Made by a program: the position numbers and the translations under genes | IMG/VR virus record: IMGVR_UViG_3300019487_000958 | Span: 1 to 39,605 of that record | Strand: one strand, 5' to 3' | DNA length: 39,605 nt | Origin: a virus | The notes under the pieces: generated by a model | What the model saw: only the letters and a program-made list of their open reading frames with translations | Database searches by the model: none | Told to the model about the DNA's origin: nothing | Shown here: in pieces, positions 9,744-36,010 of the stretch | How positions within the stretch are numbered: the first letter of the stretch is position 1 | How the letters are laid out: each line of letters opens with the position of its first letter

Positions 9744-9777
9744 CCCTGTAACCTGTCCCCTGTTCCCTGTCCCCTAC
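9744..9777. repeat. GGTTACAG/GGAACAG-type repeat
   Basis: Minus strand reads GGGGACAGGGAACAGGGGACAG then GTTACAGGG, filling the spacer between two tail-region genes and overlapping the last codons of the upstream gene. Confidence 0.8.
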
Positions 9778-12156: not shown

Positions 12157-12230
12157 TAGGTGACAGGGAACAGGTGACAGAGAGGGAATCTCCGCGCCCT
12201 GTACCCTGTAACCTGTCACCTGTTCCCTCT
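12157..12230. repeat. Inverted GGAACAG/GGTGACAG repeat cassette
   Basis: A perfect 15-bp inverted repeat, GGGAACAGGTGACAG at 12166-12180 and its complement at 12213-12227, encloses a core GGGAATCTCCGCGCCCTG. Nearly the same core and arms occur at 21059-21136. No T-run follows, so it is not a simple terminator. Confidence 0.85.
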
Positions 12231-12662
12231 TTGCACTTCTTTCAACGAAAGAGACACGCGCGCCCTGATCGGATGACCTTCCGGCGCGTGAAACGTCTCT
12301 TCAATTCGTGCCTCTTCCAAAACGCATCGCTCCTGGCGATCTCCCCAAACCGCGAGAAGTGGCGGCGGCGTTCCCTCGCAGGTTTCGTTTTGCAGCGCGA
12401 GTATCGCTTCGATCTCCGGCTTGATCGATTGATTCGTGTCTGTTTTATCAAGCCAGACTTCGCGGATTTCTAACCGCCGAGGATCGCGATTGAAATAAAA
12501 CAATGGCCGCGTGCCTGTCGTCGTGTCCTGCTCAGACCAGTTCGCCCGGCGCGATACTTCAATCGGCCCGGTGGGAAACCACTGAAACTGGAACACCCCG
12601 CCGCCGCACAAATTGATCAGAATGAATTTGCCTTTGCGAAACGGGAAAACCGGAGTCCCCAT
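12216..12662 (-). CDS. Tail tube-baseplate adaptor, gp53/CIS-tube-like
   Basis: A 148-residue protein with the pattern of contractile-system tube adaptor proteins: FQWFPTGPIEVSRRANWSEQ near the N terminus, LLAVWGDRQERCVLEEARIEETFHAPEGHPIRARVSLSLKE at the C terminus (in segments). Proteins of this kind join tube and baseplate in phages and in extracellular injection systems and often lie next to a LysM gene, as here. The ATG overlaps the tape-measure stop (TGATG). Its last codons lie within the inverted-repeat cassette. Confidence 0.7.
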   Translation of the reverse strand: MGTPVFPFRKGKFILINLCGGGVFQFQWFPTGPIEVSRRANWSEQDTTTGTRPLFYFNRDPRRLEIREVWLDKTDTNQSIKPEIEAILALQNETCEGTPPPLLAVWGDRQERCVLEEARIEETFHAPEGHPIRARVSLSLKEVQRGNR

Positions 12663-15921: not shown

Positions 15922-16352
15922 ATTATGATGATCTCCTCCGGTCTCAACTGGAACTTGAAAAAGCTGGCGTTTTTACCGCCCGCGGTCATTGAATCCGCTT
16001 CCATTTTCTTCGGCACGCAGTTGATCAATTCATAAACCTGGACGAGGGATTCGCCGTCTTCATCCAGCACAATCAACCGTCCCCCGCGACGTTCAACGTT
16101 GGTTCCATCGATGAAATCCTTCATCCATCGATAGAACTCAGCCCCCGCCTGATTGAGCGCGTGCGCGTGGCGCACGTTGATCGTGTCGCAATTGAAGTGA
16201 CCACGACCGAGATTAGGATTCGGCTTGTTCGATTCATACAACTCGAACTCTTCGTGATTGACCCCCACGCCCGTCACCTCGGTCGCGCGCACGCTCGTAA
16301 TTCCATTAAATTCGAACAAGAACCTCCCCTCAGAAGTACCCTTGCCAGCCAT
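15918..16352 (-). CDS. Tail tube protein (T4 gp19-like)
   Basis: A 144-residue tube protein: EFNGITSVRATEVTGVGVNHEEFELYES, GRGHFNCDTINVRHAHALN, FYRWMKDFIDG and VYELINCVPKKMEADSMTAGG match the phage T4 gp19 / TIGR02241 tube family used in contractile tails and injection systems. AGGAGG lies 6 bases upstream and is inside the end of the preceding island reading frame. The first 11 residues (MAGKGTSEGRF) are repeated as MPGKGTSEGRY at 18001-18033 across the island, with different codons. The tube is therefore intact, but its natural upstream neighbour, the sheath, is separated by 1.7 kb. Confidence 0.88.
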   Translation of the reverse strand: MAGKGTSEGRFLFEFNGITSVRATEVTGVGVNHEEFELYESNKPNPNLGRGHFNCDTINVRHAHALNQAGAEFYRWMKDFIDGTNVERRGGRLIVLDEDGESLVQVYELINCVPKKMEADSMTAGGKNASFFKFQLRPEEIIII

Positions 16353-16353
16353 C

Positions 16354-16746
16354 TTAGTTCCTCCTTTGATCTGACGTTGACAATATCGAACCAGCTAAGA
16401 CCAGTTTTCTTGGAAGTGCTACAGAACAGTCCCCATACAAAACATCGATCATCTTGGTTCCAGTCACCTTGAATATGTACACATTGCTCCTGGCGTCTTT
16501 ACGAACGGATGCCTGAATTCGCTTCAGTATTTCATCGTCCGCAATCTCAAGCCTTCGATGCGCTTCCGATGTAGACCGCGTTTGTATGTTGTGTTTTTGA
16601 AACTCACGATAAATAACGTCTGTCGAGACGTTGACCGAAGAAGCCAAGTCTTTTACTTTCTCGCCGGATTCATACCTGCGAGCAAGCACTAATACCTTAT
16701 CCGTCGAGAGTTTTCTTTTCGGTGAAGGACGAGGTTTCAGCCTTTC
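16354..16746 (-). CDS. Second HTH domain, probably made by -1 frameshift from the 72-aa HTH gene
   Basis: A 130-residue segment with no good start codon. It opens ERLKPRPSPKRK, then VLVLARRYESGEKVKDLASSVNVSTDVIYREFQKHNIQTRS, a helix-turn-helix like those of recombinases and intron-encoded or HNH-linked proteins, then a basic region and a beta-like tail (VYIFKVTGTKMIDVLYGD). It becomes continuous with the upstream HTH gene by a -1 shift at A AAA AAG, giving a 200-residue protein with two DNA-binding domains. It stops 2 bases before the tube ATG and contains the tube Shine-Dalgarno. A GTG near 16689 is the alternative start. Confidence 0.55.
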   Translation of the reverse strand, partial: ERLKPRPSPKRKLSTDKVLVLARRYESGEKVKDLASSVNVSTDVIYREFQKHNIQTRSTSEAHRRLEIADDEILKRIQASVRKDARSNVYIFKVTGTKMIDVLYGDCSVALPRKLVLAGSILSTSDQRRN

Positions 16747-16955
16747 TTTTTTTTCTTTTTCGCTCCCGGCTTCGGCCCCGGCTTTAATTCGGGGGGCTTC
16801 GTACCCTCTGGAATTTCCCAATAGTGGCCGGTCGGCGTTAGGTGCTTGACTGCCTGCGGAATCTGTCCGGCCTGAAGCCAGAACATTACAGTTGTATAAG
16901 GCTTCCCTATCGCTTCGGCATACTGTCTCGGTGAAAGCACTTTCTTCTTTACCAT
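16737..16955 (-). CDS. Excisionase/MerR-like HTH protein with Lys-rich tail
   Basis: A 72-residue protein. SPRQYAEAIGKPYTTVMFWLQAGQIPQAVKHL and GHYWEIPEG fit the winged HTH of excisionase-type DNA-binding proteins. It ends in Pro/Gly/Lys-rich KPGPKPGAKKKKKKG. It is transcribed from the left arm of the divergent promoter, and its start lies 11 bases from an operator copy, so it is a candidate autoregulator of the island. The end of the gene contains a slippery run that can fuse it to the next frame. Confidence 0.7.
   Translation of the reverse strand: MVKKKVLSPRQYAEAIGKPYTTVMFWLQAGQIPQAVKHLTPTGHYWEIPEGTKPPELKPGPKPGAKKKKKKG
16746..16763 (-). promoter_or_regulatory. Programmed -1 frameshift site A AAA AAG
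   Basis: In the zero frame the codons are GCG AAA AAG AAA AAA AAG AAA GGC TGA, so the heptamer A AAA AAG at 16752-16746 is the slippery type of dnaX. GGGAG lies about 8 bases before it and could act as a stimulatory Shine-Dalgarno. The zero-frame stop is two codons beyond. No obvious downstream stem-loop is seen. Confidence 0.6.
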
Positions 16956-16965
16956 TCATATAATC

Positions 16966-17068
16966 GTACCCCCTACAAGCATTATAAAGCAACAGAGAGA
17001 AAATACAACAGAATTCTTGTAGGGGGTACAAGTTTTCTCTTGTATTCTTGTAGGGTCTACGGTACAAT
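16966..17068. promoter_or_regulatory. Divergent promoter with three operator copies
   Basis: GTACCCCCTACAAG at 16966-16979 is exactly inverted as CTTGTAGGGGGTAC at 17016-17029, and a third copy CTTGTAGGGTCTAC lies at 17047-17060. Minus-strand promoter: TTGTAT (17008-17003), 16-bp spacer, TATAAT (16986-16981). Plus-strand promoter: TTGTAT (17040-17045), 17-bp spacer, TACAAT (17063-17068). The first operator covers the expected minus start site; the third lies in the plus spacer. This layout fits mutual or self-repression by an HTH protein. Confidence 0.75.
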
Positions 17069-17074
17069 CCACCT

Positions 17075-17260
17075 ATGCTTAGAACAAACAAAGAACTCAA
17101 CAAAATCAGACGCGAATCGGGTGATTTTATGCCAGCGCGGGTGGAGAAAGCGCGCAGCAAGTACCAGCCACTCACAGCCGAAAGATTGGCTGAAATCAGA
17201 GCGAAGTACGCCGACCAAACCGCGAAGATCAACGCGATCTTTGAAGGAAAGTTCAAATAG
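17075..17260 (+). CDS. Small basic helical protein of the HNH island
   Basis: A 61-residue protein, rich in Lys, Arg and Glu (LTAERLAEIRAKYADQTAKINAIF). The ATG lies only 7 bases after the TACAAT box, so it is probably leaderless. It is followed after 8 bases by the HNH gene with its own Shine-Dalgarno. Possibly a DNA-binding partner or antirepressor; no family recognised. Confidence 0.55.
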   Translation: MLRTNKELNKIRRESGDFMPARVEKARSKYQPLTAERLAEIRAKYADQTAKINAIFEGKFK

Positions 17261-17268
17261 GAGCAACG

Positions 17269-17583
17269 ATGGCCCGACACCGAAGAGACGCCCGCACGTC
17301 TGCATATCTCCGCGCTAAGAAATACGGAGTGAGAATCGAACAGGTGCGCTTTGATTTCATCATCAAGCGCGACCGTTCGACCTGCTACCTGTGCGGGCGG
17401 GTTTTGATGGGCTATCAGATTGTTTTTGATCACGTCGCGCCGCTCTCTCGCGGGGGGCCGCACTCTGAAGGCAATATCCGCGTTGCTTGCGCGCCGTGCA
17501 ATCGAAGGAAGGGGAACAATCTGCCTGCCGAATGTAAATGGCTCAAAAGATCGACGGGCATTTTGATTCTCAGAAAAGTTTAA
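17269..17583 (+). CDS. HNH endonuclease
   Basis: A 104-residue HNH nuclease. C39/C42 and C74/C77 form a zinc site. DHVAPLSRGG (H55) and EGNIRVACAPCNRRKGNN (N69, C74, C77, N78) complete the beta-beta-alpha-metal fold. TAGGAG precedes the ATG by 6 bases. Unlike the HNH beside packaging terminases, it stands in the opposite direction to the phage genes within an island, so a homing role is more likely than a role in DNA packaging. Its target may be the tube-gene start that it interrupts. Confidence 0.82.
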   Translation: MARHRRDARTSAYLRAKKYGVRIEQVRFDFIIKRDRSTCYLCGRVLMGYQIVFDHVAPLSRGGPHSEGNIRVACAPCNRRKGNNLPAECKWLKRSTGILILRKV

Positions 17584-17646
17584 GAGGCAGGGTTGAGGCC
17601 GTCGCTCAGGCAGAAGGCGCGGCCCGTTTGCAACGGAGGGGATGTT

Positions 17647-17994
17647 ATGAAAATAGAAGGCGAAATTCTTGTTGTTGAATACAGCATCAGAGGCGACAAA
17701 CACACCGAATTTGAAAAGAAGGTGCTTACTGCACATTTCCAGCTTCGCCACCTTATGGGCATCGCCGCTCTCATCAGACTCGTTGATATCCAAGCGGGAT
17801 GCAACAGAGATGACATAACATGGCAGAACCTTGAAAACCTGTGCGTCTCGATCAATGAACTTGGCAGCCTTATCTACGCCCTCGCCGATGGCGCGTATGG
17901 CGACGTGGTAGAGCTTGAAGAACTCTACAATCGGCAGGCTAAAAGCTTCTGTGAAGCCCTTGATGCGGCTAAGTCTGCCGAGAAGGGAGAGTGA
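17647..17994 (+). CDS. Island protein of unknown function
   Basis: A 115-residue protein with a strong site (GGAGGGGATGTT before the ATG at 17647). It begins with a beta-rich MKIEGEILVVEYSI and continues with helices (FEKKVLTAHFQLRHLMGIAALIRLVD, VVELEELYNRQAKSFCEALDA). It ends 6 bases before the tube-gene remnant, so it marks the edge of the island. No family recognised. Confidence 0.6.
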   Translation: MKIEGEILVVEYSIRGDKHTEFEKKVLTAHFQLRHLMGIAALIRLVDIQAGCNRDDITWQNLENLCVSINELGSLIYALADGAYGDVVELEELYNRQAKSFCEALDAAKSAEKGE

Positions 17995-18000
17995 CCTCCG

Positions 18001-18033
18001 GTATCTACCTTCACTCGTTCCTTTACCTGGCAT
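18001..18033 (-). pseudogene. Remnant 5' end of a tail-tube gene
   Basis: Eleven codons, MPGKGTSEGRY, preceded by GCGAGG and 6 bases. The intact tube gene begins MAGKGTSEGRF. The eight shared residues after position 2 use different codons in each copy, for example GGT/GGC, AAA/AAG, ACG/ACT, AGT/TCT. After the eleventh codon the frame enters antisense of the island gene. It is thus a broken gene start left upstream of the insertion. Confidence 0.7.
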
Positions 18034-18050
18034 TGCTTACCTCGCTGTTG

Positions 18051-18098
18051 AGGTGACAGGGAACAGGTTACAGCCCTGTCACCTGTCACCTGTTCCCT
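18051..18098. repeat. Inverted GGTGACAG/GGAACAG repeat
   Basis: GGGAACAGGT at 18059-18068 is inverted at 18088-18097, and GGTGACAGG at 18052-18060 is inverted at 18075-18083. The repeat abuts the sheath stop codon. Confidence 0.8.
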
Positions 18099-19632
18099 AT
18101 TGTTGCAGGACGCTCAAATCCTGAAACAACCTCACGTTCTCGATGTTGATGATTACCTGCTCGGCGGTCGGACTGATCCTCACTCCCCACAGGACGTGGA
18201 CGCGCTGCTGATCCAACTCTTCAGGCGGATTGTTGCTCTCATCAGCGACGACGATGAAAGCTTCCTCCTGCTCCTTGCCGAAGAGTGCGCCGACTTCCCA
18301 ATAGGGCTTGAGGAACGATACGCCGGTTGCAACCAAATCGCGGAAGAGTCGCCCCTGTGGATCGACCACCGAAAATGGCGCCCATTGATAACCGAGTTTC
18401 GCCGAGTAGTAGAAGAGATTCAGCAATCGAATCTCGTGAACCATCTGAACTCTGGTATCGCCAGTGATGACCCGCGCGCCATAAATCTTCACGCCTTGCT
18501 CAGGCAACGGAGTGATCACATTCACATCCTTGCCGTTGAGAAATTCGCGGGTGTTCTCATCCGTCTGAGATTGACCGTTCGAAGCCTTCTCAACTCCGAG
18601 CGCACCAGGTATGACCAGATTGGCTGGCGCTTTGTGTGTGCCAATCTCGCGATCCACCTTCGCGCAGGCTCCAGCGGCGAACCCCGAAGGAGCATAAAAC
18701 TTTCTCAACCCGCTGCCCTCGATGTCGAGCATTTCGACGTGAGGCCAGTAGATCGCGGCATAATAACTTCCGTAGATAGCGCGAATGTCTGCCACATCCT
18801 GTTTATCGCTTCCAAACGGGGGATCAAGGAGCGCAAGCCGATGATATGCCTCAGCGTGCGCGATCAGGGCCGCGTGAGCTTCATTGGTCGTTATCCCAGG
18901 GAGGGCTACCTGCCCGCCTCCAAGTTGCTCATCCTTGAACGTCTGAAGGCCAGTTTTTCCACCGGGCTGCCCGTTGTCAGTGCCAATGTATGTTGCCGCA
19001 GTTATTGTGCTGAAATCATCGGTGCCGCCAGTGAGTGAAGATTCAGCAGCAATCGCAGGCAGGTTGTTCGGCGGAACCGTGGCGCTGTTGAGATTCACAA
19101 CATCGACCAGTTTCGAATTCTGATTGATGCGATCAATCGAAACCTGATCGATCTTGATGTTGTCGAAGCTTTCCTTCCGATTTAGAAACACGCTGCGAAA
19201 CGTGAGCTTCACGCTGTTAGCAACTGTCCCCGCTTCGACTGTCACCTTGAGATCGACCTTGCTCGAAGGATACTTCGCATCGACTCTGAGTGTCGGGAGA
19301 GGTGTACCCGCTCGGTCATTGAGCGTCTTCGTAGCTTTGACTGGCGTTGTTCCGACAACGCGAGTAATCCACGCCTGTTTGCCCGGAAAGTTGTTGAAAA
19401 AGTGATAGCAGAAATCATCCAGGAAGCTGTTGGCATCGAAGCCTCCGAACTGGCGAACATAGTCCGGCCAGCTTGTGACGACGCGCGGGATGTTGACCGG
19501 CCCCCAGGGAGAATAGCCAACTGCGAAGGCAGTAGACGAAGGCTGGCGCTGGATTGGGCGCGCGACCTGGAAGGTATTCACCAGCACGGTCACGCCTGGT
19601 AAAGTCGATTCGATCACGAGTCCCTGAGCCAT
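18097..19632 (-). CDS. Tail sheath protein (Mu gpL-like)
   Basis: A 511-residue contractile tail sheath. Typical features are the N-terminal PGVTVLVNTFQVARPIQ, TAFAVGYSPWGPVNIPRVVTSWPDYVRQFGGF, and the C-terminal domain with VNVITPLPEQGVKIYGARVI, WEVGALFGKEQEEAFIVVADE and QVIINIENVRLFQDLSVLQQ. It wraps the tube and drives contraction. AAGGAGG lies upstream and the ATG overlaps the previous stop (TGATG). Length is normal for the Mu/eCIS type. Confidence 0.92.
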   Translation of the reverse strand: MAQGLVIESTLPGVTVLVNTFQVARPIQRQPSSTAFAVGYSPWGPVNIPRVVTSWPDYVRQFGGFDANSFLDDFCYHFFNNFPGKQAWITRVVGTTPVKATKTLNDRAGTPLPTLRVDAKYPSSKVDLKVTVEAGTVANSVKLTFRSVFLNRKESFDNIKIDQVSIDRINQNSKLVDVVNLNSATVPPNNLPAIAAESSLTGGTDDFSTITAATYIGTDNGQPGGKTGLQTFKDEQLGGGQVALPGITTNEAHAALIAHAEAYHRLALLDPPFGSDKQDVADIRAIYGSYYAAIYWPHVEMLDIEGSGLRKFYAPSGFAAGACAKVDREIGTHKAPANLVIPGALGVEKASNGQSQTDENTREFLNGKDVNVITPLPEQGVKIYGARVITGDTRVQMVHEIRLLNLFYYSAKLGYQWAPFSVVDPQGRLFRDLVATGVSFLKPYWEVGALFGKEQEEAFIVVADESNNPPEELDQQRVHVLWGVRISPTAEQVIINIENVRLFQDLSVLQQ

Positions 19633-21058: not shown

Positions 21059-21136
21059 GGTGACAGGGAACAGGTTACAGGTTACAGAGAAGGAATCTCC
21101 GCGCCCTGTCCCCTGTAACCTATTCCCTGTTCCCTC
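21059..21136. repeat. Inverted repeat cassette, second copy
   Basis: Arms of GGTGACAGGGAACAGGTTAC type surround AAGGAATCTCCGCGCCCTG, the same core as the cassette at 12157-12230. The two copies also share the flanking gene orientation. Confidence 0.85.
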
Positions 21137-21137
21137 A

Positions 21138-21587
21138 TCAATAGCCTGTCAATTTGTCGTCACTGAAGACGACTGTCGATTTCTCCGAACCCCTCAACAC
21201 TTCATCGGGACTCGCCGGATTCGTTTCCGTCTCTTCCAAGCTCGGCACATCGAGCGCGGCCTTGCCCGCTGCCACATCCTGAAGGAACTTCATCGCCGCG
21301 TCGTGAGCTTCTTTTTTGACCTTGTAACTCCCCTCGGTATCGGTCGCCCGCGATTTATAAAGATGAAACACTGCGAGATCAAGACACACGGCCTTGACCT
21401 TCTCAGTGACCGGGACGGGGAGCGTGTATCGAGTGCGTGAGTAAGAGTCGACCGTGCCGACAGCGTAAGAGATCGCCTTGTTGATTCTGGACTCACCGAC
21501 TTCGCCGATTCCCTCATCGTCGGTGAGTTGAATCAGCTTGTCTTCGCCGAGTTCATCCAGCAAATCTTGTTGTGTGATATAGCTCAT
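21138..21587 (-). CDS. Mu gp36-like (DUF1320) head-tail protein
   Basis: About 149 residues from the ATG at 21587 (a GTG lies 6 bases earlier). MSYITQQDLLDELGEDKLIQLTDDEG, INKAISYAVGTVDSYSRTRYTLPVP and VKAVCLDLAVFHLYKSRA match the DUF1320 / gp36 family, a head-completion or connector protein. Residues are normal in length; the C terminus is DDKLTGY. Confidence 0.85.
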   Translation of the reverse strand: MSYITQQDLLDELGEDKLIQLTDDEGIGEVGESRINKAISYAVGTVDSYSRTRYTLPVPVTEKVKAVCLDLAVFHLYKSRATDTEGSYKVKKEAHDAAMKFLQDVAAGKAALDVPSLEETETNPASPDEVLRGSEKSTVVFSDDKLTGY

Positions 21588-21764: not shown

Positions 21765-21789
21765 TCCTGTCCCCTGTAACCTGTCCCCT
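21765..21789. repeat. GGTTACAG/GGGACAG repeat
   Basis: Minus strand GAGGGGACAGGTTACAGGGG repeats the common family just downstream of the secreted-protein gene. Confidence 0.75.
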
Positions 21790-22439
21790 CAAGGTGTTAT
21801 CACCCGATACTTGATCGTCACTACAGCCGTGCCTGTCCCTGTGGCAAAGGGGGCGGTCGCATTAGTGATCACAATCGCGGCAGCAGGCACAGGCGTAAAC
21901 GAAGCGATCACGCCGCCAACGTGGTTATACTCGGTTCCCGCGCCTCCGGTGGTGACGACGCTCGCGGCGATGTCCGCGCTGACTTTCGCGCCGCTCGCAT
22001 CGGTGTAGCGAAACTCCAACGCTCCCCCGCCAGTGAAGGCGGTCGCCGTGCGAATCATTTTGAAGGTGATCGATTCGACCAGAATGAGTTTGCCCGCCGC
22101 TGGCGCTGCGATGAGTTGAACGGGAGTAGTCCCCATCGCGATGATGTTGGCGGCTGAGAGTGATACCTGAATGGTGCGCGCGATGCTCTCATCGAGGCTC
22201 ACAGTGTAGACGCCTGCGGCGGGTGTGACTGTCACCTGACTGGCAGTTCCGGCAACACTCGTCACGGGCGGCGTATAGGTCGCTTCATTGCCGGAGCGCG
22301 TGACCGTGCCAGTCAGTTTGAAGATTCGCGTCGGCAGTGGGTCTGCGCCGCCGACCTGCCCGATCCTCAATCGGTCGAACTGGAATCCGGCTGCGAACAG
22401 ACTCAACACCAGCAGCAATGCAAAAGCTCGCTTCATCAT
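21789..22439 (-). CDS. Signal-peptide protein in the capsid block, possible decoration protein
   Basis: A 216-residue protein with an N-terminal Sec-like signal (MMKRAFALLLVLSLFAAGFQ). Later, GTTPVQLIAAPAAGKLILVESITFKMI, GGGALEFRYTDASGAKV and GTAVVTIKYRVI form a beta-sandwich typical of phage head or fibre accessory proteins. GAGAGGTGAA precedes a double ATG and overlaps the gp35-like stop (ATGA). Its position between the capsid protein and gp36 would suit a decoration protein, yet the signal peptide argues for export. Confidence 0.6.
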   Translation of the reverse strand: MMKRAFALLLVLSLFAAGFQFDRLRIGQVGGADPLPTRIFKLTGTVTRSGNEATYTPPVTSVAGTASQVTVTPAAGVYTVSLDESIARTIQVSLSAANIIAMGTTPVQLIAAPAAGKLILVESITFKMIRTATAFTGGGALEFRYTDASGAKVSADIAASVVTTGGAGTEYNHVGGVIASFTPVPAAAIVITNATAPFATGTGTAVVTIKYRVITP

Positions 22440-26521: not shown

Positions 26522-26551
26522 GTGACTACTCCGCGCCCTAGAAGGACGCGG
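26522..26551 (-). other. Insertion sequence right-end hairpin
   Basis: CCGCGTCC and GGGCGCGG form an 8-bp stem with one G-T pair around TTCTA, followed by AGTAGTCAC. The hairpin overlaps the tnpB stop. This is the structure recognised by TnpA, and transcripts here would form the end of an omega RNA whose guide is the following phage sequence. Confidence 0.7.
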
Positions 26552-27656
26552 CTTCTATGGTCTGTTGACCAAGACTCTGTAGCCCCAGAGTCAGAATGTT
26601 TATAGCGGCGTTGTGGTCGCGGTCTATGACCAATCCACAGCCTGAGCAATTATGAATACGAACGCTCAAACTTTTAGGGACTATCTCACCGCACCCGCTA
26701 CACATCTGACTTGTGTTGCGCGGATTGACTTGCACCACACGACGCCCAGCTTCTTCCGCTTTGTACGTTGTGAAGAGGACAAGTTGATTCCACGCCGCGT
26801 CTGCGATGGACTTGGCGAGACAGTGATTCTTGAGCATCCCGCGTATGTTCAGATTTTCAAATACGATAGTTTGATAGCGATTGACGAGTTTGCGGCTCTC
26901 TTGATGAGCAAAGTCTTTGCGCTTGTTGGCTACGCGCTCATGAACATGCGCAACTACCTTTCGTCGCTTCTTTCGCTCTGGACTGCCCTTAGTCGCTGCG
27001 CTCAGTTTTCTTTGAGCTTTGGCAAGCTGCTTTTCTTCGGCGCGAAAGAATCGAGGATTGTGAATCGGCTCACCGTTCGACAGCACAGCAAATTCTTTCA
27101 ACCCGCAGTCAACGCCCGCCGTCTCAAGTGTGACGGGCATTGGCTCTATCTCACACTCAACCGAAAAGCAGGCATACCATTTGCCCGTAGATGTGCGGGT
27201 GATGGTCAGTGTCTTGATTTTGCCTTCGATGGGGCGATGCTGTTTGATTTTCACCTTACCGATTTTAGAGAGCCGCAGCTTGCCATGCTCGATAGCAAAT
27301 CCAGACTGCGAATAGGTGAAGCTGTCATATCGAGCGCGAGCGCGAAAGCGCGGGTAGCCCGGCTTATCGCCAGTCTTCACACGGCGAAAGAATGCGTCAA
27401 AGGCTTTGTCGAGGCGCTTCAATACCTCTTGCAATACCTGCGAGTGAACCGTGTTCAACTCAGGCCGAATCTCTTTGATTTCGGGCAACTGGACGGCTTG
27501 ACAGTGGTAGTTGATCGTCGTGCGGCTGATGCGGTAAGCGTCGCGCCGTTCCTGCAATCCGGCATTGTACAACTCACAACAAAGCCCAAGCGTGCGCTCA
27601 AGCTTTGTCACCTGAGCGCGGCTTGGGTAGATTCGATATTTGAAAGCCTTGAGCAT
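26538..27656 (-). CDS. tnpB: TnpB RNA-guided nuclease
   Basis: A 372-residue TnpB. RuvC-like residues are D183 (GVDCGLKEFAVLSNG), E267 (VFENLNIRGML) and D347 (IDRDHNAAIN). The zinc finger has C319, C322, C337 and C340. All catalytic residues are present. TnpB uses an omega RNA from the right end to cut empty donor sites and favours retention of the element. The start ATG is one base after the tnpA stop. Confidence 0.93.
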   Translation of the reverse strand: MLKAFKYRIYPSRAQVTKLERTLGLCCELYNAGLQERRDAYRISRTTINYHCQAVQLPEIKEIRPELNTVHSQVLQEVLKRLDKAFDAFFRRVKTGDKPGYPRFRARARYDSFTYSQSGFAIEHGKLRLSKIGKVKIKQHRPIEGKIKTLTITRTSTGKWYACFSVECEIEPMPVTLETAGVDCGLKEFAVLSNGEPIHNPRFFRAEEKQLAKAQRKLSAATKGSPERKKRRKVVAHVHERVANKRKDFAHQESRKLVNRYQTIVFENLNIRGMLKNHCLAKSIADAAWNQLVLFTTYKAEEAGRRVVQVNPRNTSQMCSGCGEIVPKSLSVRIHNCSGCGLVIDRDHNAAINILTLGLQSLGQQTIEAASF

Positions 27657-28061
27657 TTACTTGACTCTCTGCGATTCAACGTATCGCTTGATGACTTCCA
27701 AAGGTGCGCCGCCAACCGTGACGACAAAGTAAGACGGACTCCACAGATGCCCTTTCCAGAGCCGATTGCGAAGCGTCGGGAACTCTCGAAAGAGTTTGTA
27801 AGCCGTCGCGCCTTTGAGCCTGTTGACTACTTCCGAAAGCGAATCACTAGGCTTGCACCTGAACACAACATGGATGTGGTCAACTTCAGTCTCTACAGCC
27901 ACAAGCTGACAATCGCGCTCTTTGAGAATGTCAGCGACCATTTCTTTGAGCCTGTCGCCTATTCGGTGCGTCAAAACCGTGCGGCGATACTTGACGCACC
28001 ATACCAGATGATAGGTGAGCAGGAAAGTCGAGTGCGCGCCGGATTGCAATTCGTATTTCAT
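27657..28061 (-). CDS. tnpA: TnpA Y1 transposase
   Basis: A 134-residue IS200/IS605 transposase. The HUH motif is H62-I-H64 (DHIHVVF) and the catalytic tyrosine is Y127 (IKRYVESQ). It seems complete. Its ATG overlaps the stop of the 220-residue gene (TAATG), an unusual arrangement for an IS200-type element, where a palindromic left end normally precedes tnpA. Confidence 0.93.
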   Translation of the reverse strand: MKYELQSGAHSTFLLTYHLVWCVKYRRTVLTHRIGDRLKEMVADILKERDCQLVAVETEVDHIHVVFRCKPSDSLSEVVNRLKGATAYKLFREFPTLRNRLWKGHLWSPSYFVVTVGGAPLEVIKRYVESQRVK

Positions 28062-32386: not shown

Positions 32387-32424
32387 CCCTCTCTGTAACC
32401 TGTTCCCTGTAACCTGTCACCTAA
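32387..32424. repeat. GGTTACAG/GGAACAG repeat
   Basis: Minus strand GGTGACAGGTTACAGGGAAC then AGGTTACAGAGAGGG between the helical protein and the annealing-like gene. Confidence 0.8.
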
Positions 32425-33110
32425 ACCAATTCCGCATCAGGCAGTTGTTCGAGAGCCGAGATGATGCAGGCTCGCTCCTGTTGATTGAGTTCGCCCGCGC
32501 TATCGACCGCGCGGCCAAGCTGTTTGGTTTGCTCATAGAGCCAGCGTTTGTAATCGCTGGCGTCTTTGCAGCCGCCGACGAATTTGATCAACGCTGGCTT
32601 TCCGGGAGTTAGCGCCTTCTGTCCTGCGAGCAAATGAATGCGCGACAGATCGCGGGCGCGGCTCTCGGCATCGTCAACTCTGGTGTCAGCGAAGGTTGCT
32701 ATAGGAGTGCGCGGGTGTCGCATCGGATCGATCCCGGCAGCCACGAGCGCGTTGCGAATTGCGCGAGACGCGGCCAGTCGGTGAGCATCCGCCTCTTCAT
32801 CTTCGGGCAACTTCTCATCGAGCGAAGCTACGCCTGATCGCTCAAAAACACGGTCGTTGTTGAGTATGACCGTCGCCACATAGACAACCTGCTTCAAGGG
32901 TTCGATAAACTGGTCGAACCGCTCAGATATGGTTTTCACCTCCGGCGACCGGCGCGCGATGGTCATCAAGGCCGATGCCGGGAGCCACGGCTCATCCGGT
33001 TTTTTAGGGTTGAGAAAGTAGATGGCGTCTTTCGGAATGCCGTGTTGCTTCGAGAGTATCTCGGCAATCCGTCGCTGTTGACTTGAGTAACTGACTGTTG
33101 CTGTTCCCAT
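32421..33110 (-). CDS. Possible single-strand annealing-like protein
   Basis: 229 residues. VVYVATVILNNDRVFERSGVA and EEADAHRLAASRAIRNALVAAGIDP recall the core of Rad52/RecT-type annealing proteins, in which an acidic/ETRA-like segment precedes a conserved AxxRAL. The N terminus (RIAEILSKQHGIPKDAIYF) and C terminus are helical. AGGAG precedes the ATG. The call is by motif resemblance; it could also be an unrelated early protein. Confidence 0.45.
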   Translation of the reverse strand: MGTATVSYSSQQRRIAEILSKQHGIPKDAIYFLNPKKPDEPWLPASALMTIARRSPEVKTISERFDQFIEPLKQVVYVATVILNNDRVFERSGVASLDEKLPEDEEADAHRLAASRAIRNALVAAGIDPMRHPRTPIATFADTRVDDAESRARDLSRIHLLAGQKALTPGKPALIKFVGGCKDASDYKRWLYEQTKQLGRAVDSAGELNQQERACIISALEQLPDAELV

Positions 33111-33122
33111 TGTTTTTCTCCT

Positions 33123-33249
33123 ATGTTAGAAGCCAGGAGTCAGGAGTCAGAAGGTTACAGGTGACAGGGAACAGGTGACAGAGGGGAAATCTCCGGAACT
33201 GTAACCTGTAACCTGTAACCTGTTCCCTATACCGACCACCGACCACTGC
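33123..33249. repeat. Composite repeat block with three families
   Basis: GGAGTCA units, a GGTTACAG/GGTGACAG inverted cassette with core GGGGAAATCTCC, then GGTCGGT units follow one another in 127 bases. It is the longest repeat block in the window. Confidence 0.85.
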
Positions 33250-35570: not shown

Positions 35571-35641
35571 AGGGAACAGGGAACAGGGAACAGGTGACAG
35601 GAATTCCCTCCCTGTAACCTGTCCCCTATCACCTGTCACCT
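35571..35641. repeat. Inverted GGAACAG/GGTGACAG repeat
   Basis: Three GGGAACA units, GGTGACAGG, a core GAATTC palindrome, and a complementary arm. It overlaps the 3' end of the 66-residue gene. Confidence 0.8.
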
Positions 35642-35829
35642 ATAAGCTGGTCGATCCCCTCAGACAGCGCGCGTGACAACTCAGCGTTGATCGCTGCAAG
35701 CTCGCTCACCACTGCGGAGAACGGCTCGCGGCGCAATCGCTCTGCCACTTCCCGCAAGCGATTGGCGCACGATTCGACTTCATAAGCCAGATCAGCTTCT
35801 TCAGCCATTTCTTCCATAGTTGTTGACAT
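35629..35829 (-). CDS. Small helical early protein
   Basis: 66 residues, Glu/Ala/Arg-rich (EEADLAYEVESCANRLREVAERL). GGAGGAAC before the ATG is partly from the repeat. It ends in a repeat. Function unknown. Confidence 0.55.
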   Translation of the reverse strand: MSTTMEEMAEEADLAYEVESCANRLREVAERLRREPFSAVVSELAAINAELSRALSEGIDQLIGDR

Positions 35830-36010
35830 CGCTGTTCCTCCCTGTAACCTGTAACCTGTTCCCTGTTCCCTCTAGCTCCATCATCACTTCATTGACCGCG
35901 AAAGCGACTTCCAGCGCCGTCGTCCGATAGGTAGCTGTGCCGAAGCAATATCGCGTTTCCGCGTCCACGACGTAGAAAGTTTTTCCCTGCTGTTCTATTA
36001 CTGCTCTCAT
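35801..36010 (-). CDS. Small early protein with repeat-coded C terminus
   Basis: 69 residues from the ATG at 36010 (GGGGGAATGATT upstream). MRAVIEQQGKTFYVVDAETR and EVAFAVNEVMMELE are the core; GTGNRLQVTGRNSDVN is encoded by GGAACAG/GGTTACAG repeats. It overlaps the next gene by 29 bp. Confidence 0.5.
   Translation of the reverse strand: MRAVIEQQGKTFYVVDAETRYCFGTATYRTTALEVAFAVNEVMMELEGTGNRLQVTGRNSDVNNYGRNG
35837..35873. repeat. GGTTACAG/GGAACAG repeat, translated
   Basis: Minus strand GAGGGAACAGGGAACAGGTT then ACAGGTTACAGGGAGG, read as codons in the 69-residue gene and giving the ribosome site of the next gene. Confidence 0.8.

Follow-up and report, generated by a model that had tools for sequence, protein, structure and literature searches.

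A duplicated tail-tube gene start and a core-deleted LAGLIDADG homing endonuclease gene at the sheath–tube junction of a soil phage

Homing nucleases that replace one end of the gene they invade are known from mitochondria. In Glomus, ORFs encoding LAGLIDADG and other endonucleases have replaced the 3′ ends of atp6, atp9, cox2, and nad3; for atp6, the inserted end is 91% identical to the native one in protein and 63.5% in DNA. A hybrid gene formed with a mobile ORF can also be found in Allomyces atp6 (PMC3630166). Tremella introns can carry N-terminal duplications of their host genes, for which a model of fragment exchange has been proposed (PMC7315562). Among phages, the free-standing homing endonucleases of the T-even group (seg, mob) occupy intergenic gaps and co-convert their flanks (PMC2988022), and phage nuclease genes mark the boundaries of genetic exchange (PMC10448857). 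A displaced gene start is not seen in the available part of the T-even account (PMC2988022), and no described phage case was found in the open-licence literature.

The site considered here lies between the tail sheath and tail tube genes of a soil phage (Table 1). The window, i.e., the whole stretch of DNA that was analyzed, is an IMG/VR virus record of 39,605 bases; its late genes are on the minus strand, and their order, as read from the translations, fits a contractile-tailed, Mu-like phage. The first eleven residues of the tube protein are found twice, both times on the minus strand and spaced by a 1,648-nt island. One copy is stranded next to the sheath gene, while the other opens the intact tube gene, directly behind a homing endonuclease gene of the HTH-LAGLIDADG type that has lost its catalytic core. 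As in Glomus, an essential gene holds a nuclease ORF, with a diverged homologous end beside the nuclease and the native end displaced across it, which is the arrangement that defines the mitochondrial hybrid genes. Protein identity is also high and DNA identity low (9/11 residues and 21/33 nt between the two starts), as for Glomus atp6. In contrast to the 3′ ends of mitochondrial genes replaced in Glomus, the part concerned in the phage is the 5′ end of a structural gene, with a new start codon and a new ribosome site, and the phage nuclease is without its core. The Tremella introns offer a second likeness, an N-terminal part of the host gene being duplicated across a mobile element and an exchange with a foreign fragment having been proposed (PMC7315562), but they are predicted introns within the host gene, whereas no intron was found at the phage site, where the duplicated part spans just 11 codons. 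Free-standing nuclease genes in gaps beside essential phage genes are a T-even trait as well, although the T-even cleavage sites are hundreds to thousands of bases distant and the T4 enzymes are of the GIY-YIG or HNH types, unlike the LAGLIDADG remnant (PMC2988022). The phage site is evidence for the mitochondrial trick at the 5′ end of an essential virion gene. It also points to a simple way for selfish nucleases to settle in the coding starts of essential genes with no need of an intron or intein, and to exchange gene ends among viruses as they do so.

Table 1. Features at the sheath–tube site (positions in the window).
Feature	Positions	Strand	Evidence
Tail sheath gene, flanking the island on the left	18097..19632	-	Pfam Phage_sheath_1 E=3e-12; relatives 50-67% identical
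Stranded tube start of native type, MPGKGTSEGRY (codons 1-11)	18001..18033	-	Own ribosome site GAGGT
115-aa protein	17647..17994	+	ORF with ribosome site GGAGGGGATGTT
HNH endonuclease, 104 aa	17269..17583	+	PF14279 E=9.5e-11, PF01844 E=3e-10; HNH and CxxC motifs
61-aa ORF upstream of HNH	17075..17260	+	ORF call alone
Control region between divergent genes, 120 nt	16965..17061		CTTGTAGGGGGTAC-like / GTACCCCCTACAAG-like repeats
72-aa small putative DNA-binding ORF, AlpA/Cox excisionase-like	16737..16955	-	Weak PHROG Cox-like excisionase match E=0.011
Core-deleted HTH-LAGLIDADG homing endonuclease, upstream ORF limit uncertain	16354..16750	-	hmmsearch E=1.9e-13
Functional tube start, codons 1-11 MAGKGTSEGRF	16320..16352	-	Sequence
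Intact tail tube gene, 144 aa	15918..16352	-	Pfam Phage_T4_gp19 E=7e-13; relatives

A preliminary description of this DNA had reported the two copies of the eleven residues, some 1.65 kb with an HNH nuclease between them, and a different codon for each of the eight residues shared after position 2. All of this was confirmed, the HNH assignment by PF14279 and PF01844, both above cutoff. The stranded start reads ATG CCA GGT AAA GGA ACG AGT GAA GGT AGA TAC and the working start ATG GCT GGC AAG GGT ACT TCT GAG GGG AGG TTC; a ribosome site also precedes the latter (AAAGGAGG). The shared non-Met residues, GKGTSEGR, have 0/8 codons in common. With independent draws from the codon usage of the phage itself, such an outcome has a probability of ~3.5% (0.035), and when 573 stretches of eight identical residues, taken without overlap from comparisons of related phages, served as a control with real data, 7 of them (1.2%) shared no codon. 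The recoding of all codons is therefore unusual, yet within ordinary saturated divergence, and is suggestive rather than a proof. The match between the proteins, for its part, is non-random, since both copies begin at a start codon and the one upstream agrees with MPGxGTxExRY, the family start of the relatives. When peptides of the left and right flanks were compared at the window site and at 44 other homing-endonuclease loci, the window site came out top among the loci with a score of 49; the controls had a mean of 30 and a standard deviation of 4.3, but their maximum, 52, exceeds this score. No comparable displaced gene end above control was found at the 44 other loci, so the family does not generally displace gene ends in this way. 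Separately, a 14-nt partial repeat, CCTCCGGT(C/A)TC(A/T)AC, at 15935 and 17995 was considered as the trace of a deleted tube paralogue, a reading that would join codon 11 to the last codons, and was rejected as a chance resemblance (12/14 bases match).

Related loci, gathered by profile searches with sheath and tube, came from IMG/VR and one Acidobacteria MAG, the latter being the single close sheath relative when 396 genomes of the phylum were scanned. The comparison with related phages proposed in the preliminary description bears it out on this point: no nuclease island can be found at 17 related sheath–tube junctions, where the tube starts tens of bases to about 150 nt past the sheath. The exception to this short gap is one locus with a 66-residue ORF between sheath and tube (L038:7537-7737), which suggests that the junction accepts other inserts. 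A single tube gene is present in each of the loci that span the whole tube (16/16, of the 17 related loci), and two intact tube genes side by side, which the preliminary description had named as contrary to its proposal, were found in none of these 16. The tube proteins of the nearer relatives start with MPGQGTHENRY, MPRRGTHENRY, MPGQGAS..., and MPANTGTAEGRF. At the DNA level, the stranded copy is closer than the working copy to the relatives' starts in 6/8 comparisons, with one tie and one reverse, and hence looks like the native start. The relatives are ~65-70% identical in DNA and none of those found offers a near-identical empty site showing the target codons, so an insertion after codon 11 is what we infer from them.

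The LAGLIDADG gene was recognized from its relatives. In tblastn searches against related phage contigs, the C-terminus of the ORF preceding the tube matches two proteins of 379-413 aa (L056 and L058, in the phage contig of L052), which are HTH-LAGLIDADG homing endonucleases with Pfam LAGLIDADG_3 above cutoff. Scanning IMG/VR with these two proteins gave 72 loci, 24 of which, on phage contigs, were used to build an HTH-LAGLIDADG profile. Only one ORF of the window is significant with this profile, and it is matched in two co-linear pieces out of 279 HMM positions: the N-terminal HTH of the family is present at ~16725-16534 (HMM 6-69), and a C-terminal piece at ~16503-16363 (HMM 227-273). The catalytic core of the LAGLIDADG enzyme (HMM 70-226) is absent by an in-frame deletion. 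Judged from its sequence, the remnant is a derived, presumably inactive HTH-LAGLIDADG homing endonuclease and not a working member of the family. Its TAA stop is followed by a G and then by the ATG of the tube, i.e., a gap of 1 nt on the same strand, and the ribosome site of the tube is embedded in its last codons. The closest intact members are found in the same phage family, in contig L052/G409, beside portal-like and minor-head-like genes. These intact HTH-LAGLIDADG genes (L056:424-1665 and L058:655-1794, IMGVR_UViG_3300044815_000221) are convergent with the portal-like and minor-head-like genes and abut or overlap their 3′ ends. A related phage harbors an HTH fused to a DUF559/Vsr-like nuclease (L057:952-1731, G002), which may represent a further kind of free-standing homing enzyme in the group.

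The explanation that we favor, with a probability of roughly 0.55, is that a homing endonuclease inserted in the tube start and stranded 11 native codons, a divergent replacement start being supplied or co-fixed. A free-standing HTH-LAGLIDADG gene, now dead, would have entered the tube gene after codon 11, leaving the native codons 1-11 upstream and still legible, and the tube would now be expressed from the second start abutting the nuclease gene, by means of the ribosome site in its last codons. A tube homologue that had diverged would be the source of the second start, which either travelled on the element as a short patch or was co-converted in the course of homing within a longer piece of donor DNA. 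As the protein is kept while every shared non-Met codon is different, a nuclease that cuts the native start would match the second start poorly. The divergent cassette with the intact HNH gene, between the stranded start and the remnant, may be a later arrival, a helper, or the mobiliser of the island. Homing is preferred on the combination of a flush nuclease, a stranded native start, a diverged second start and the lack of a second tube in relatives; the explanation rests on a single instance. Of the element with a restored start that had been put forward in the preliminary description, a nuclease-bearing insertion that restores the ORF and its ribosome site can be retained, but not the HNH gene at its heart.

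Homing can be dispensed with altogether if a donor tube and its upstream sequence were joined after codon 11 by illegitimate recombination, or if a tandem duplication decayed, the nucleases coming later. We regard this as unlikely, though less so than the alternatives that follow. Tail genes recombine in the phage family, the sheath, tube, and chaperone trees being in disagreement, and the small ORF at the same junction of one relative indicates that the gap tolerates ordinary inserts. Given its sheath, the tube of the window is more diverged than any other of the 17 (mean residual -6.7 vs. -4.8 to +3.1), yet it is nearer than expected to those of two loci, L136 and L138; the divergence of the tube body would fit replacement of the whole gene better than a short patch. 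However, no relative has two tubes, the LAGLIDADG remnant is flush with the tube and shares its ribosome site rather than lying loose in a spacer, and the stranded piece is no longer than 33 nt, the end of an island gene being 6 nt from it. The trees place the window tube in a well supported tube clade (100/99), with weak support for its nearest branch and for the placement of the sheath; as proof of a foreign tube, the sheath, tube, and chaperone trees were rejected as too weakly supported.

A more elaborate version of the homing explanation, which we hold to be doubtful, would have the nuclease cut an essential tail gene at its start and carry a codon-shuffled copy of exactly that start, which cannot be cut. 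That the second start was recoded as an immunity to cutting is plausible from the codons. Such an escape had been suggested in the preliminary description, and it gains mild support from the codon pattern, which has a chance of about 1-3.5%, but not from a near-identical empty site among relatives. The arrangement would recall the engineered HomeR drive, a homing element in an essential gene with its own rescue, as a design analogy only (PMC7968924). Unlike HomeR, which is Cas9-based and engineered, the phage element is natural and decayed, and selection for its recoding is not proven. It would give recoded-rescue gene drives a precedent in nature, and be a rare parallel to a drive that carries its own repair patch. 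The frame that begins at the stranded start may be considered in the same context. It is open for 559 codons (18033-16354, minus strand), first antisense to the HNH cassette and then merging with the LAGLIDADG frame, and its stop lies 1 nt ahead of the working start. For the first 433 codons, an open frame has a chance of ~2e-5 under a model that keeps the proteins of the other genes and redraws synonymous codons, while in the window's own antisense frames such open stretches lie ahead of 0.8% of start points. The 559-codon frame might allow ribosomes to stay on the late transcript as they cross the insert, sustaining translation of the late operon, or it could be luck.

In the preliminary description it was the HNH protein that homed and cut the native tube start, the second start being a recoded, uncuttable patch from the element. 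The HNH gene is intact, with the conserved His/Asn/His and CxxC pairs and matches to many phage HNH PHROGs, and the difference in eight of eight shared non-Met codons would suit this role. Nevertheless, we consider it improbable: the HNH gene is on the plus strand, opposite to the tube, as part of a divergent cassette of its own and at a distance of 900 nt from the working start, whereas the core-deleted LAGLIDADG gene, which had been missed, lies exactly at the tube junction, and the codon pattern has a 1.2-3.5% chance. On the plus strand, the island carries the 61-aa ORF, the HNH gene and the 115-aa orphan, and on the divergent minus-strand side the 72-aa ORF followed by the LAGLIDADG remnant. 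A single-sequence search of IMG/VR with the HNH protein returned one partial match at 39% identity, and a search against phages hundreds of generic HNH matches, all <60% identical; a cognate relative was found in neither. The 115-aa protein, whose stop codon lies 6 nt from the stranded tube start, has no family match and no relative in IMG/VR, phages, or the 396 genomes of the phylum, and its fold model is poor (mean pLDDT 54).

Nuclease-bearing introns are known in phage tail genes. Together with the fungal introns that have N-terminal duplications (PMC7315562), they lend some color to a self-splicing intron, present or past, whose removal from the mRNA would link the stranded codons with the tube body, the second start then being intron sequence. 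We hold this to be very improbable: a group I or group II intron was sought in Rfam, and neither an intron nor any other RNA family was matched, in the window at the gathering score or in the island at a relaxed E-value, and the second start has a strong ribosome site of its own.

Some further elements can be found in and around the island. The CTTGTAGGGGGTAC-like 17-18-mers occur three times in the control region between the divergent genes, twice in direct and once in inverted orientation; scans for promoters and terminators gave no excess over shuffles. An A-rich run that ends the 72-aa ORF (16737-16765, minus strand) contains a slippery heptamer of the dnaX/IS3 type, A AAA AAG, at which a -1 shift would fuse the 72-aa ORF exactly into the HTH-LAGLIDADG frame. 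The stem 3′ of the heptamer is weak (z = -1.7), and the run could represent either a programmed frameshift or homopolymer decay. Elsewhere in the window, neighboring ORFs at 26538-28061 on the minus strand resemble, from their translations, the TnpB and TnpA of IS200/IS605. Repeats with a 7-nt unit (CCTGTAA CCTGTCA CCTGTTC) are interspersed in many intergenic gaps of the window, at 9744-9771, 12204-12231, 18039-18101, 21065-21138, 21765-21792, 32391-32432, 33159-33231, 35578-35651, and 35840-35867, the third of these arrays lying in the gap between the sheath gene and the stranded tube start.
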